Origin: Clavibacter michiganensis
GTDB lineage: Bacteria > Actinomycetota > Actinomycetes > Actinomycetales > Microbacteriaceae
Direction of reading: 5' to 3'
DNA length: 64,000 bases
NCBI GenBank assembly: GCA_002150995.1
Contig: MDHJ01000001.1
Coordinates: 1,426,001 to 1,490,000, forward strand
Position numbers and translations under genes: made by a program. The notes below the pieces were generated by a model that saw nothing but the letters and a program-made list of their open reading frames with translations, made no database searches and was not told where the DNA came from. Positions 30,491 to 38,892 of the stretch are shown here, piece by piece; positions within the stretch are counted from its first letter, which is position 1; each line of letters opens with the position of its first letter.

Positions 30491-31811
30491 TCAGGCGGGG
30501 GTCGCCTGGAGCTTCGCCGCGAGCACCTCGGCGAAGCGGGCGTACCCCCGGTCGTTCGGGTGGTTGTCGGGGCCCATCCAGCCGTAGGGGTCGGAGGCGC
30601 CCTCGCCGACCATGCGCGGGATGTAGGCGCCGATCTCGAACACGTCCGCGAGCGGATCCGCCGACGCGGCGTCGCGGAGCGCCCCGATGTAGTCGGCCCA
30701 CGTCGTGCCCGCGACGGGGAGCGTCGTGCGCTCGTACGGCGGCGTGAAGAGGATGGGCGCCTTGCTCGTCGTGCGGATCAGCTCGATGAGCACCCGGGCG
30801 TCCGAGCGCACCTGCTCGGGGGTGCGGACCACCACGTCGTTGATGAGGTGCTCCGGCATCCACAGGTCGAGCTCGAAGCGCGGCGCCGAGCGGATCCATG
30901 TGCTCACCCCGTCCGGGCGGGCGAGCTCCGAGAGCTGCCAGAGCTGCGAGCCGGAGTTGCCGCCCTCGATGACGTGCACGCCGCGCTCCTCGTCGCCGTC
31001 GAAGAGCCAGGCGCCCTCGAGCTCGGGGCGCCCGCCCGCGCCGGCGACCGTGAGGGTGTGCTCGCCCGGGTCCAGCTGCGGGCTCGTCCACGTGAGGGAG
31101 CCGCCCGCCTCGGCGCGGACCGCCTCGGGCGCCCCGTCGTCGACCTGGACGGTGATCGCGGCATCGAGCCCGGGCGCCCACCAGCAGATCCGCGCCGACG
31201 TCATGCGCGCCGTGTAGGTGCCGGGCCCCGAGGCCTCCGTCAGCGGCACGACGCGGCGTCCCCAGCCGTGCCGGCCTCCCGCCGTGGGCGTCCCGGAGAA
31301 CCGGAACCCCTGGTCGGCGGGGACGGTGATCTGGTGCCGGGATGCGATGTAGTCGAGCCCGCCGCGTGCGCCCGACGGGTAGGCGCCCCGCAGCCGGTCC
31401 CGCAGCTGGGCGGGGTACGCGTGCTGGAGGGTCGACGCGCCCTGTCCCTCGGCGATGCTGTCGCCGAGCACGCCGATGGTCAGGCGCCGTTCGCGGACGC
31501 TCTCCCGGAGCGCGTAGAAGCCCGCGAGCGCGTCGTCGGGCGCGTACGTCATGGGCTCCACGGGCGGGCCGCCCGACTCCGTCACGGCGGGCGCGGGCGG
31601 GTCGTCGGGGTCCGCGGACGGCGCGGGTTCCGGATCGGCGGTGGGATCGGCGGGGCGCGGCGTCGTGGTGCAGCCGGCGATCGCCGCCACGGCGGAGAGG
31701 GCCGCGACCCCGCCCGCCGCGACGAGCGCGCGCCGGGACAGCCGGCGGCGCGCAGCGGGAGGGCCGTCCTCGGGGAGCGGTCGGCGTGCGGGCGGGGGTC
31801 TCGTCGGTCAC
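30491..31811 (-). CDS. SGNH/GDSL hydrolase, putative Tat-exported lipoprotein (N-terminal frame uncertain)
   Basis: The body (~400 residues) has block I GVLGDSIAEGQGAST and block V PDNHPNDRGYARFAEVL, giving the Ser and Asp-x-x-His of an SGNH esterase, with a carbohydrate-binding-like insertion in between. Directly before it is a twin-arginine segment LSRRALVAAGGVAALSAVAAIAGC that ends in a lipobox cysteine. This frame has no start codon. A GTG at 31811 (MTDETPARTP) is in a different frame; two missing bases would join them (total length then divisible by three), for example at the runs near 31760 and 31740. The exact start is therefore unproven. It may deacylate a cell-surface glycan, but the substrate is unknown. 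Confidence 0.72.
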
Positions 31812-32024: not shown

Positions 32025-34082
32025 TCAGCGGGCGCGGTAGACGCGCAATGAGGGCCCCTGCACCGCGACCCGGTCGCCCGGGGCATCGTCCTCCGTCACC
32101 GGCTCGGGGCGCTCCCACTCGCTCGTCCACAGCAGGTGCCACGCGGCGACGCCGGGCTGCGCGGGGAGCGTGACGTCGACGCCCCCCTCGAGACCGTGCA
32201 CGACGACGAGGACGGTGCTCGGCTCCTCCGTCTCGGGCGTGGAGGTCGTGATCCACTGCAGGGTCCGCGTGTCGGCGGAGGCCCACGCCCCCTCCGTCAT
32301 CGGCCGGCCCTCGGCGTCACGCCACGAGAGCACCGACGCGCTCGGCACCGCGGCCTCGGGCGAGGCGTAGCGCACCGGGCGCAGCGCCGGGTTCTCCCGA
32401 CGGATGCGCAGCAGGTGCCGGGTGGTGGCGTGCAGGTCGAGGCGCCAGGCGTCCTCGTCCCAGTGCACCCAGGTCGCCTCGTTGTCGAGGCAGTAGCCGT
32501 TGTTGTTGCCGCGCTGCGTGCGGCCGCGCTCGTCGCCCATCGTGAGCATCGGGATGCCCGCGGACACCAGCAGGGTGCCGAGCAGGTTGCGCGACGTGCG
32601 GCGCCGCGCGGCGAGGACCGCCGCGTCGCGCGTCGGTCCCTCCACCCCGTGGTTCCAGGAGCGGTTCGCGTCCGTCCCGTCGCGGTTCGACTCGCCGTTG
32701 CCGCTGTTGTGCTTGCGGTCGTACGAGGTCAGGTCCGCCAGCGTGAAGCCGTCGTGCGCCGTGACGAACGAGACGGACGCCAGCGGTCCGCGCTCGGCCG
32801 CGAACGTGTCCGACGACCCCGCCAGGCACGACGCCAGCGCCCCGACGCCCTGGGGCGCGCGTCCCGAGCGGCGGGCCTCGGCGACGTCGGCGAGCCAGAA
32901 GTCGCGCACGCGGTCGCGGTAGCCGTCGTTCCACTCGCTCCAGCCGGATCCGAACCCGCCCGTCCGCCAGCCGCCCATGCCCACGTCCCACGGCTCGGCG
33001 ATCATCAGGAGGCCCGCGAGCGCCTCGTCCTCGACGATGGCGCGGAGGAGCGGGTGCCCCGGGTCGAAGTCCACGTGCTCGTCGCGCCCCAGAGTGACGG
33101 CGAGGTCGAAGCGGAAGCCGTCGACGCCCATGACATCGGACCAGTGCTCGAGGCTGTCGAGCACGAGCCGCTGCGCGTCGGGCCGGGAGAGGTCTAGCGT
33201 GTTGCCGCAGCCGGTCACGTCGATGGGCGTCCCGTCCGGGGTGTGCCGGTAGTAGCGCGACCCGTCGATGCCCCGGAGGCTCGTGACCGGGCCGTCCGCG
33301 CCCTCCTCGGCGGTGTGGTTGTACACCACGTCGAGCACGACCTGGATGCCGGCGGCGTGCAGGGCGTCGACCATGGCCCGGAACTCGTCCGCGACCGCGT
33401 CGGCCCCCGCGTCGCGGGCGCGGCGGGTGGCGTAGGGCGCATGCGGCGCCAGGTAGGCGAGCGTGTTGTAGCCCCAGTGGTTGATGCGCCCCTGGGCGCG
33501 CAGCCGCTCCTCGCTCGTGGAGGCGTGCACCGGCAGGAGCTCGACCGTCGTGATCCCGAGGTCGACCAGGCGCGCCACCGACTCCGCGTGGCCGAGCCCC
33601 GCGTAGGTGCCGCGCAGCTCCTCGGGCAGGCGCTCGTCGAGCTTGCTGAATCCCCGCACGTGCATCTCGTAGACGACCTGGCGGTCCCGCGGCACGACCG
33701 GCCGGGCGGCGCGGCGGGCGGCGCGCTCCGCGTCGGGCACGGGGCGCGTGACGACGGAGCGCCACGCGGCCGGGCCGACCTGCACGAGGCCGCGGGCGTA
33801 GGGGTCGAGCAGGTGCCGGGTCGGGTCGAACGCGTCGCCGGGGGAGGGATCGCCGTCGACCCGCACCGAGTACGCGGTGCCGGGCACGAGGAGCTCGCTG
33901 GACCCCGTCCACACGCCGTGCTCGTCGCGCTCCATCGGGACCACCTGCGCCACGCGCCGGGGATCGTCGACCGCCGAGACGGTGAGCTCCACGCTCGAGG
34001 CGCCGTGGCTCACGAGGCGCAGCGTGCCGCCCGTGTCGGCGGGGGTCAGCCCCAGGGGCTCGGGCGGTCCGGGGCGCGGCAT
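32025..34082 (-). CDS. glgX: Glycogen debranching enzyme GlgX
   Basis: 685 residues. CBM48 domain at residues ~10-100, then the isoamylase-type GH13 barrel: VVYEMHVRGFSKL, GITTVELLPVH, WGYNTLAYLAPH, VVLDVVYNHTAE, DGFRFDLAVTLGRDEH with the nucleophile Asp, LLMIAEPWDVG with the acid Glu, and FVTAHDGFTLADL. NRDGTDANRSWNHG is typical of GlgX. It removes short alpha-1,6 branches after phosphorylase action. The ATG at 34082 is chosen because TACCCT ends seven bases before it; an ATG at 34103 in the same frame would overlap the divergent gene's start. It completes the glycogen set with glgB, glgE and glgP. Confidence 0.93.
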   Translation of the reverse strand: MPRPGPPEPLGLTPADTGGTLRLVSHGASSVELTVSAVDDPRRVAQVVPMERDEHGVWTGSSELLVPGTAYSVRVDGDPSPGDAFDPTRHLLDPYARGLVQVGPAAWRSVVTRPVPDAERAARRAARPVVPRDRQVVYEMHVRGFSKLDERLPEELRGTYAGLGHAESVARLVDLGITTVELLPVHASTSEERLRAQGRINHWGYNTLAYLAPHAPYATRRARDAGADAVADEFRAMVDALHAAGIQVVLDVVYNHTAEEGADGPVTSLRGIDGSRYYRHTPDGTPIDVTGCGNTLDLSRPDAQRLVLDSLEHWSDVMGVDGFRFDLAVTLGRDEHVDFDPGHPLLRAIVEDEALAGLLMIAEPWDVGMGGWRTGGFGSGWSEWNDGYRDRVRDFWLADVAEARRSGRAPQGVGALASCLAGSSDTFAAERGPLASVSFVTAHDGFTLADLTSYDRKHNSGNGESNRDGTDANRSWNHGVEGPTRDAAVLAARRRTSRNLLGTLLVSAGIPMLTMGDERGRTQRGNNNGYCLDNEATWVHWDEDAWRLDLHATTRHLLRIRRENPALRPVRYASPEAAVPSASVLSWRDAEGRPMTEGAWASADTRTLQWITTSTPETEEPSTVLVVVHGLEGGVDVTLPAQPGVAAWHLLWTSEWERPEPVTEDDAPGDRVAVQGPSLRVYRAR

Positions 34083-34088
34083 GCGACC

Positions 34089-34095
34089 TAGGGTA
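34089..34095. promoter_or_regulatory. Overlapping divergent leaderless promoter, glgX and cysteine desulfurase
   Basis: On the plus strand TAGGGT (34089-34094) is seven bases before the ATG at 34102. On the minus strand TACCCT (34095-34090) is seven bases before the ATG at 34082. The two hexamers share five base pairs, and only 19 bp separate the two start codons. Confidence 0.6.
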
Positions 34096-34101
34096 GATGG
34101 C

Positions 34102-35303
34102 ATGACGGTCTACCTGGACCACGCGGCCACGACCCCCCTGCGGCCGGAGGCGATCGCGGCGCTCGCCGGGGCGCTCACGCTGGTCGGCAACCCGTCCTCC
34201 ATCCACTCGCACGGCCAGGAGGCCCGTCGCGTGCTCGAGGAGGCCCGCGAGTCCATCGCCCGCGCCCTCGACGCGGAGCCCGTGGAGGTCGTCCTCACCT
34301 CGGGCGGCACCGAGTCGGTGAACCTCGGGATCAAGGGCCTGCACGCCGCGCGCACGGCCGCCGACCCCCGTCGGACGCGCATCCTCGTGCCCGACGGCGA
34401 GCACCACGCCACCGTGGACACCGTCGGGTGGCTCGAGCGCCAGGGGGCCGTCGTCGAGCGGCTGCCGCTGGACGCCCTCGGCCGCATCGACGTCGCCGCC
34501 GTCGCGACCGCGCTCGCCGCGGATCCCGGCTCCGTCTCGCTCCTCACCTTCCTCGCCGCCAGCAACGAGGTCGGCACCATCCAGCCGGTGGAGGAGCTCG
34601 CGGCGCTCGCCGCGGCCCACGGCGTGCCCGTGCACGTCGACGCGGTCGCGGCCCTCGGTCACGTGCCGGTCCCGTTCCGGCGGTGGCGCGACGCCGGCGT
34701 CCATGCCGTGAGCGTCTCGGCCCACAAGGTCGGCGGGCCGGTCGGATCCGGCGCCCTCGTCCTCGCCCGCGACGCACGGGTCGACGCGCTCATCCACGGC
34801 GGCGGGCAGCAGCGGCAGGTGCGCTCGGGCACGCAGGACGCCGCGTCCGCCGTGGCCTTCGCCGTGGCCGTGACCCTCGCCGTCGCCGAGCTCGACGCCG
34901 AGCGCGTCCGCCTCGCCGCCCTCCGCGACCGGCTCGTCCGCACGGTGCTGGGCGACGTCCCCGGCGCGGTCCTCCGCGGCGACCCGGACCCCGCGGGCCG
35001 GCTCCCCGGCAACGCGCACCTCACCTTCGCCGGGTGCCAGGGCGACTCGCTCCTCCTGCTCCTCGACATGGCCGGCGTGTCCGTCTCGACCGGCTCCGCC
35101 TGCCAGGCCGGCGTCCCCGAGGTATCGCACGTGCTCCTCGGCATGGGCGTGCCCGAGGACGAGGCGCGCGGCGCCCTCCGCATGACGCTCGGCCGGACGA
35201 CCACCGACGCCGACGTGGACGCGGTCCTCGCCGCCCTCCCGGACGCGGTCGCGCGGGCCTCCCGGGCGGGGCTCGCGGGACGCGCGGCGCGTAGGCTCCG
35301 AGG

Positions 35304-35307
<4 letters not shown>
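34102..35307 (+). CDS. Cysteine desulfurase (NifS/IscS family)
   Basis: 401 residues. A PLP-dependent class V aminotransferase: [14 protein letters not shown] at the N terminus, [22 protein letters not shown] with the PLP-stacking His, the [12 protein letters not shown] strand with Asp, [16 protein letters not shown] with the Schiff-base Lys, and STGSACQAG with the catalytic cysteine. It mobilises sulfur from cysteine as a protein persulfide. The next gene, mnmA, uses sulfur for tRNA, so this copy is probably its donor, as in the actinobacterial IscS-MnmA pair. The stop overlaps the mnmA start (GTGA). Confidence 0.93.
35292..35297 (+). promoter_or_regulatory. -10 element inside the desulfurase gene, before mnmA
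   Basis: TAGGCT followed by six bases and the mnmA GTG at 35304. It would allow mnmA and ligA to be transcribed separately from the desulfurase gene. Confidence 0.4.

Positions 35308-38892
<3,585 letters not shown>

Follow-up and report, generated by a model that had tools for sequence, protein, structure and literature searches.

The window analyzed here is a stretch of 64,000 nucleotides (nt) from Clavibacter michiganensis (contig MDHJ01000001.1, positions 1,426,001 to 1,490,000), and all positions below are counted from its first letter. The element in question is a symmetric seven-base core that lies between two divergent genes and resembles a -10 promoter element on both strands. On the minus strand is glgX (32025..34082), encoding a glycogen debranching protein of 685 amino acids (aa) that scored 663.5 bits against TIGR02100, above the cutoff of 640.9. 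On the plus strand is a gene for a NifS/IscS-type cysteine desulfurase (34102..35307; 401 aa plus stop; Aminotran_5). The best NCBIfam match of the desulfurase, TIGR03402, reached 353.1 bits and lies below its cutoff of 530.75, so the exact subfamily is not fixed. The two ATG start codons, at 34080..34082 on the minus strand (MPRPGPPEPLGL...) and at 34102..34104 on the plus strand (MTVYLDHAATTP...), are separated by an intergenic spacer of 19 base pairs (bp; 34083..34101), the distance reported by a first-pass annotation of this DNA.

The complete site (34080-34104) reads CATGCGACCTAGGGTAGATGGCATG on the plus strand, which is CATGCGACC-TAGGGTA-GATGGCATG. The core TAGGGTA (34089..34095) fits TANNNTA, and its midpoint is exactly equidistant from both start codons (CAT-N6-TANNNTA-N6-ATG). 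The predicted -10 hexamer of the desulfurase gene is TAGGGT on the plus strand (34089..34094), 7 nt (34095-34101) before the ATG, and that of glgX is TACCCT on the minus strand (34095-34090), likewise 7 nt (34089-34083) before the ATG; five bases (34090-34094) are common to both. The first-pass annotation had assigned the hexamers to the two genes in just this way, and the sequence bears it out. It had given the core as CTAGGGTA, which lies at 34088-34095; the relevant part is TAGGGTA.

The first T of each hexamer lies 13 bp before its ATG, in keeping with the TANNNT found about 12 bp before leaderless actinobacterial genes, and the 19-bp spacer contains no visible Shine-Dalgarno (SD) site, as is expected of such genes. 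At 34089-34095, T at -7 and A at -11 are reciprocally paired across the strands, the pairing by which prokaryotic bidirectional promoters are recognized. A longer glgX starting at the in-frame ATG at 34103-34101 (MPSTLGRMPRPG) was rejected: this codon is out of frame in the nine genus relatives with an 18-bp spacer, and a start at 34103 would also place the -10 element within the gene. The ATG at 34097 was likewise rejected, being out of frame and opening a frame of two codons (ATG GCA TGA).

The genome from which the window is taken (G000) is one 3.27-Mb contig. The leaderless signal was sampled in 464 kb of it (the window plus 20 stretches), which hold 814 candidate start codons. TANNNT was found 6 nt before the start in 26 cases and 7 nt before it in 7, while every other spacing from 0 to 30 nt occurred 0 to 4 times; with a different set of gene filters, the counts at 6 and 7 nt were 34 and 7 of 843. 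Seven nucleotides is a usual leaderless spacing in this genome, though not the commonest, and by their sequence both genes fit the actinobacterial leaderless signal. The exact arrangement CAT-N6-TANNNTA-N6-ATG occurs once in the window versus 0 times in 100 dinucleotide shuffles, and nowhere else in the genome; the reversed-pattern control has no genomic match. When CAC/GTG starts were also permitted, the genome gave 2 matches versus 1 for the control. The second N6/N6 match (1082047, a permease versus a doubtful GTG start) is probably due to chance. CAY-N5-TANNNTA-N6-RTG had 0 matches in this genome, and CAY-N5-TANNNTA-N5-RTG matched 3 times in the forward form across the 18 genus genomes, never in this one, versus 13 times for the control. 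With N6/N6, N5/N6, or N5/N5 spacings, no other convincing shared-core case was found in G000.

Conservation of the core in the genus and family

The glgX/desulfurase gene pair is kept in all 18 genus genomes, as is an in-frame Met at the glgX start. The spacer is 19 bp in nine of them and 18 bp in the other nine, which have one base less on the desulfurase side. The central bases of the core differ among these genomes (TAGGGTA, TAGGCTA), and its T, A, T, and A are invariant. Recurrence of the spacer in relatives, which the first-pass annotation had proposed to look for, thus holds within the genus, and spacers of 17 to 19 bp were found under 12 genus labels in the family.

For the family, part of the genomes was sampled, at approximately one or a few for each genus code; 231 of 249 genomes were matched. 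We excluded 63 loci that had no glgX match at an E value of 1e-8 or better; most were from outside the Microbacteriaceae, and those from within were L026, L143, L173, L064, L072, and L053 (no upstream DNA). L043 and L055, for which no start codon was found, were also excluded, and 112 loci remained that have both genes and a usable start for each. After removal of three loci with no glgX-side TANNNT (L151, L164, and L167) and of L032 (same contig as L004), 108 loci in which glgX faces the desulfurase gene were counted. They comprise 88 with genus codes and 20 named ones and carry 61 labels at genus level, of which 48 are codes and 13 are names that may overlap with codes. The count includes both L040 and L146, which are identical in sequence; 107 loci remain if L146 is removed.

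A glgX-side TANNNT is found 5 to 8 nt before an in-frame glgX start in 109/112 loci (the exceptions are L151, L164, and L167), a count that is partly built in, as the start was picked among in-frame codons with ANNNTA at 5 to 8 nt. Across the 108 loci, the glgX-side spacing is 7 nt in 96 and 6 nt in 12. The three commonest cores are TAGAGTA (48 loci), TACAGTA (19), and TAGGGTA (17), and the middle three bases take the forms GAG, CAG, GGG, GGT, GGC, CCC, and GCG. The core and the glgX start form an island of conservation, and the consensus fades beyond CATgCG...TAgAGTA.

Evidence for use of the core in both directions comes from a single base. glgX requires only ANNNTA (plus strand), and the leading T of TANNNTA is therefore needed only by the desulfurase gene. 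This T is present in 91/108 loci (91/107 distinct), a result that does not depend on how glgX starts were picked. Among the other leaderless-type promoters sampled, the corresponding A after TANNNT occurs at 0/32 in this genome (the locus itself excluded) and at 4/41 in G068, a relative with a long leader, or 4/73 in both genomes (Fisher P = 3e-28 for 91/108 versus 4/73, uncorrected for kinship). By genus label, the T is always kept in 51/61, never in 9, and is mixed in 1.

Where the forward T has been lost, another forward TANNNT usually precedes the desulfurase gene (13/17 loci; 12/16 distinct), versus 2/57 of the long-gap loci that keep the T (Fisher P = 2e-9). Counted by genus label, 8 that lost the T have a replacement and 3 do not, compared to 2 with and 41 without among those that kept it (labels may recur across classes). 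In L124, L171, and L149 (two labels), the replacement hexamer lies 6 nt before the start and is itself a leaderless-type promoter. The clearest case is Curtobacterium, which like g53 (L036, L037, L039, L040, L046, and L129 in all) has CAGGGTA or AAGGGTA, in which the forward T is lost and the glgX hexamer is kept; TATCCT lies about 21 bp downstream of the core in g53 and in most Curtobacterium loci, not including L050. In Curtobacterium and g53, a bidirectional promoter thus appears to have divided naturally into two separate ones.

Leaders and repeated compaction

The gap between the two genes is 17 to 19 bp in 34 of the 108 loci and 33 to 191 bp in 74, with none between 20 and 32 bp. All 34 compact loci keep TANNNTA. 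Among the loci that keep the forward T, the distance from the forward hexamer to the desulfurase start is either 6 to 7 nt or at least 21 nt. An SD-like motif precedes the desulfurase gene in 60/74 long-gap loci and in 1/34 compact loci (L205, not the locus studied here), and precedes glgX in 2/108. A start site some 7 nt downstream of the core would give an mRNA that is leaderless or has a leader of at least about 14 nt, with room for an SD site. The empty 20- to 32-bp class fits a 5' end that is either leaderless or long enough for an SD site. Gaps, hexamer distances, and SD motifs agree with forward transcription starting at the shared core in compact and long-gap loci alike.

Among the 12 genus labels with the compact form, g9, g76, and g54 contain both forms. 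On a 108-row glgX tree the compact state required 12 changes, at least 4 of them forced by well-supported branches. A single compact clade was rejected on a reduced 60-row tree (p-AU 2e-10), which is a quick tree of one glgX fragment of up to 260 residues per row, with the tested group defined by the trait itself. Each genus label contributed a single row for each state (two in the case of g1 and g92), and the short or long-branched L155, L165, L088, L147, L024, and L051 were left out. In g9, CATGCGATCTAGAGTAATTGAGTGCA is common to L020 and L175; in the compact one of the two the gene begins directly with that GTG as its start codon, and it looks as though some 49 nt were deleted. We infer that the leader was lost rather than gained in the compact lineages because the long form is the majority state; the tree itself does not distinguish the two directions.

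Together, these results make it very probable that the core is a conserved, sigma-A-type bidirectional -10 element beside a leaderless glgX, one that has become double-leaderless convergently. Since TANNNTA reads as TANNNT on each strand with an offset of one base, RNA polymerase would melt the same bases in either direction. The shared core would be old: most of the family loci examined have it adjacent to a glgX start of leaderless type, and in most of these it would give rise to a desulfurase mRNA with a leader and an SD site. The leader would be absent in several lineages, this genus among them, and both genes leaderless. In the genus, both transcripts would start at the A of the start codon or one base before it, from which divergent start sites 18 to 20 bp apart are expected. 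With two leaderless mRNAs, the 19 bp between the genes would consist of nothing but the core and the stretch from it to each start site. The claim of the first-pass annotation that one core serves as -10 element for two leaderless genes thus finds support in the comparison of relatives.

Several observations weigh against this interpretation. The loci are related by descent, so the counts overstate their independence, and the near-constant glgX-side hexamer reflects in part how starts were picked. The T usual at -18 of bidirectional promoters is absent (34084 is C if the start is A34102), and a search in both directions found no -35-like partner. Nor is the geometry itself enriched: CAY-N6-TANNNTA-N6-RTG has 84 forward matches in 120 family genomes versus 154 for the reversed-pattern control, and at least 12 of the 84 are the glgX/desulfurase locus. 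The pattern therefore carries no weight by itself; its recurrence at one locus does. No replacement TANNNT was found in 4/17 loci that lost the T (L050, L132, L150, and L177), and in L088 the replacement lies 130 nt before the start. When kinship was controlled, 2 starred pairs bore on loss and replacement (on average 1.6 went the same way, 0.0 the opposite way, and 0.4 showed no difference; median P = 0.5). We treat this test as supportive only because it has almost no power under that control. Finally, the compact state of g89 depends solely on L165 (gap of 17 bp), whose start is uncertain.

Three other explanations were considered. The core could be a promoter for glgX only, with the desulfurase mRNA starting elsewhere and TANNNTA beside the desulfurase ATG being due to chance or a relic. 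The glgX-side hexamer is indeed the more constant of the two, and the 17 loci that lost the forward T retain it. However, chance or relic status is hard to reconcile with the excess of the forward-only T over other leaderless-type promoters, with its retention at a spacing of 6 to 7 nt in every compact locus, or with the appearance of another forward TANNNT where it is lost. The empty gap class and the way in which SD motifs track gap class argue in the same direction, and we regard a glgX-only promoter as improbable. It is more improbable still that TAGAGTA and its flank are primarily the operator of a transcription factor. The high conservation of TAgAGTA together with its CATgCG side would suit an operator, as would two 6-bp palindromes near the core, GCATGC (34079-34084) and CCTAGG (34087-34092). 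Yet the conserved positions keep a distance of 6 to 7 nt from the glgX start codon, like the other leaderless-type -10 elements of the genome, and the middle three bases vary as they do in TANNNT, so that CCTAGG is disrupted in most relatives. Furthermore, no inverted repeat with arms of at least 6 nt is centered on the core.

The remaining explanation concerns what the overlap is for. The first-pass annotation proposed that polymerase bound for one gene excludes the other, coupling glycogen debranching inversely to sulfur transfer and tRNA thiolation. The hexamers have five bases in common, so that simultaneous binding is geometrically impossible, and two polymerase complexes should not be able to coexist on the core; compaction, moreover, has recurred. 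Steric exclusion at bidirectional promoters is stated in the literature, and Warman et al. 2026 found that divergent RNA was repressed once one direction was substantially activated in Escherichia coli (PMC12825309). The same study reports that basal activity was too low for competition at all five E. coli bidirectional promoters tested (PMC12825309). The relevance of exclusion depends on occupancy, which we expect to be moderate or low because neither direction has a -35 match, so that little coupling would result. Both genes persist in the lineages that lost the shared core, most of which have a different forward TANNNT; sharing is therefore not essential. Since the gap is long in most loci, usually with an SD-like leader, double-leaderless coupling is also no general requirement. 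The inverse coupling is thus not supported, and an inverse switch under selection seems unlikely. It is similarly doubtful that compaction recurred because polymerase exclusion between glgX and the desulfurase-mnmA operon is useful; if it did, the site would switch between glycogen use and sulfur transfer, or limit noise between them, with no need for a regulator.

What the comparison establishes directly for the bidirectional -10 element is its sequence, its conservation, the spacing classes, and the co-variation; sigma A use, the start sites, and mutual exclusion of polymerases are inferred. Start-site maps are the main source of knowledge on bidirectional promoters, and conserved symmetry is hard to tell from incidental symmetry. 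The family provides a natural series in which the symmetric core occurs with a leader, without a leader, and with its symmetry broken beside another forward hexamer. This makes selection on two-way use of a -10 element approachable from sequence.

Related systems, further candidates, and neighboring genes

Prokaryotic bidirectional promoters were reportedly the subject of a 2021 Nature Microbiology paper by Warman, Grainger, and colleagues. The site described here is best filed as a promoter of this Grainger type, having the -10 pairing and lacking the usual -18T. Bidirectional promoters are defined by divergent start sites 7 to 25 bp apart, with T at -18 of each direction usual and not obligatory (PMC10268837). 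The present site resembles them in its shared pseudosymmetric -10 element with reciprocally paired -7 and -11 positions and in its predicted start sites about 18 to 20 bp apart (PMC10268837, PMC12825309). Unlike the promoters described there, it would yield two leaderless mRNAs from an intergenic region made of core and spacings, it has no -35-like partner and no typical -18T, and its symmetry can be traced across a family in which relatives have lost one side.

Leaderless genes, widespread in Actinobacteria at 19.2 percent on average, are described as having TANNNT about 12 bp before the start and no SD site (BMC Genomics 2011, PMC3160421). Both genes share these features; the difference is that one core would serve two opposite leaderless genes. 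The EcoRV restriction-modification promoters are also divergent with overlapping polymerase binding sites, and transcription of the two sides was strongly coupled in a model (PMC5333194). There, one direction is under the control of a C protein, and C is not transcribed as a leaderless mRNA, whereas our locus has no known regulator. The lysG/lysE pair of Mycobacterium tuberculosis is likewise actinobacterial and divergent with overlapping promoters, and one lysE promoter gives a leaderless transcript (PMC5648196). That pair has a 108-bp intergenic region and a LysR-type regulator, and the available text describes one leaderless product. Our search of the literature on leaderless, divergent, and bidirectional promoters found no report of a double-leaderless shared-core case, and no study of Clavibacter start sites or leaderless genes that looked relevant. 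What appears to be new here, on the sequence comparisons above, is the double-leaderless output, the family-wide conservation, and the repeated compaction of a bidirectional promoter.

A second divergent pair of the double-leaderless TANNNTA type was seen in other genera (L199:1501-1525 in G082, L200:1501-1525 in G147, L201:1501-1525 in G019, and L210:1501-1525 in G126). One of its genes begins VKILVLGSGAREHAI..., which we take to be purD, and faces a small gene (MARARI...ATAVRYTLQLL...) that is presumably SCP2-like. Similar matches at the pattern level occur in G153, G073, G125, and G021. In the Clavibacter genome studied here, purD (L213, near 723767, minus strand) looks leaderless, with TAGGGT 6 nt before a GTG, and has no close divergent partner sharing the hexamer.

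Downstream of the desulfurase gene is mnmA (35304..36470, plus strand), encoding tRNA 2-thiouridine synthase (NF001138, 394.6 bits, above the cutoff of 284). Its GTG overlaps the desulfurase stop codon by 4 nt (GTGA, 35304-35307), which suggests translational coupling within one operon, and the two genes probably form such an operon. The open reading frame at 36478-38892, which begins 7 nt after mnmA and which we assume to be a ligA-like gene, may also belong to it. On the minus strand, glgX is followed by a GDSL-lipase-like gene (30491-31690; Pfam Lipase_GDSL_2).
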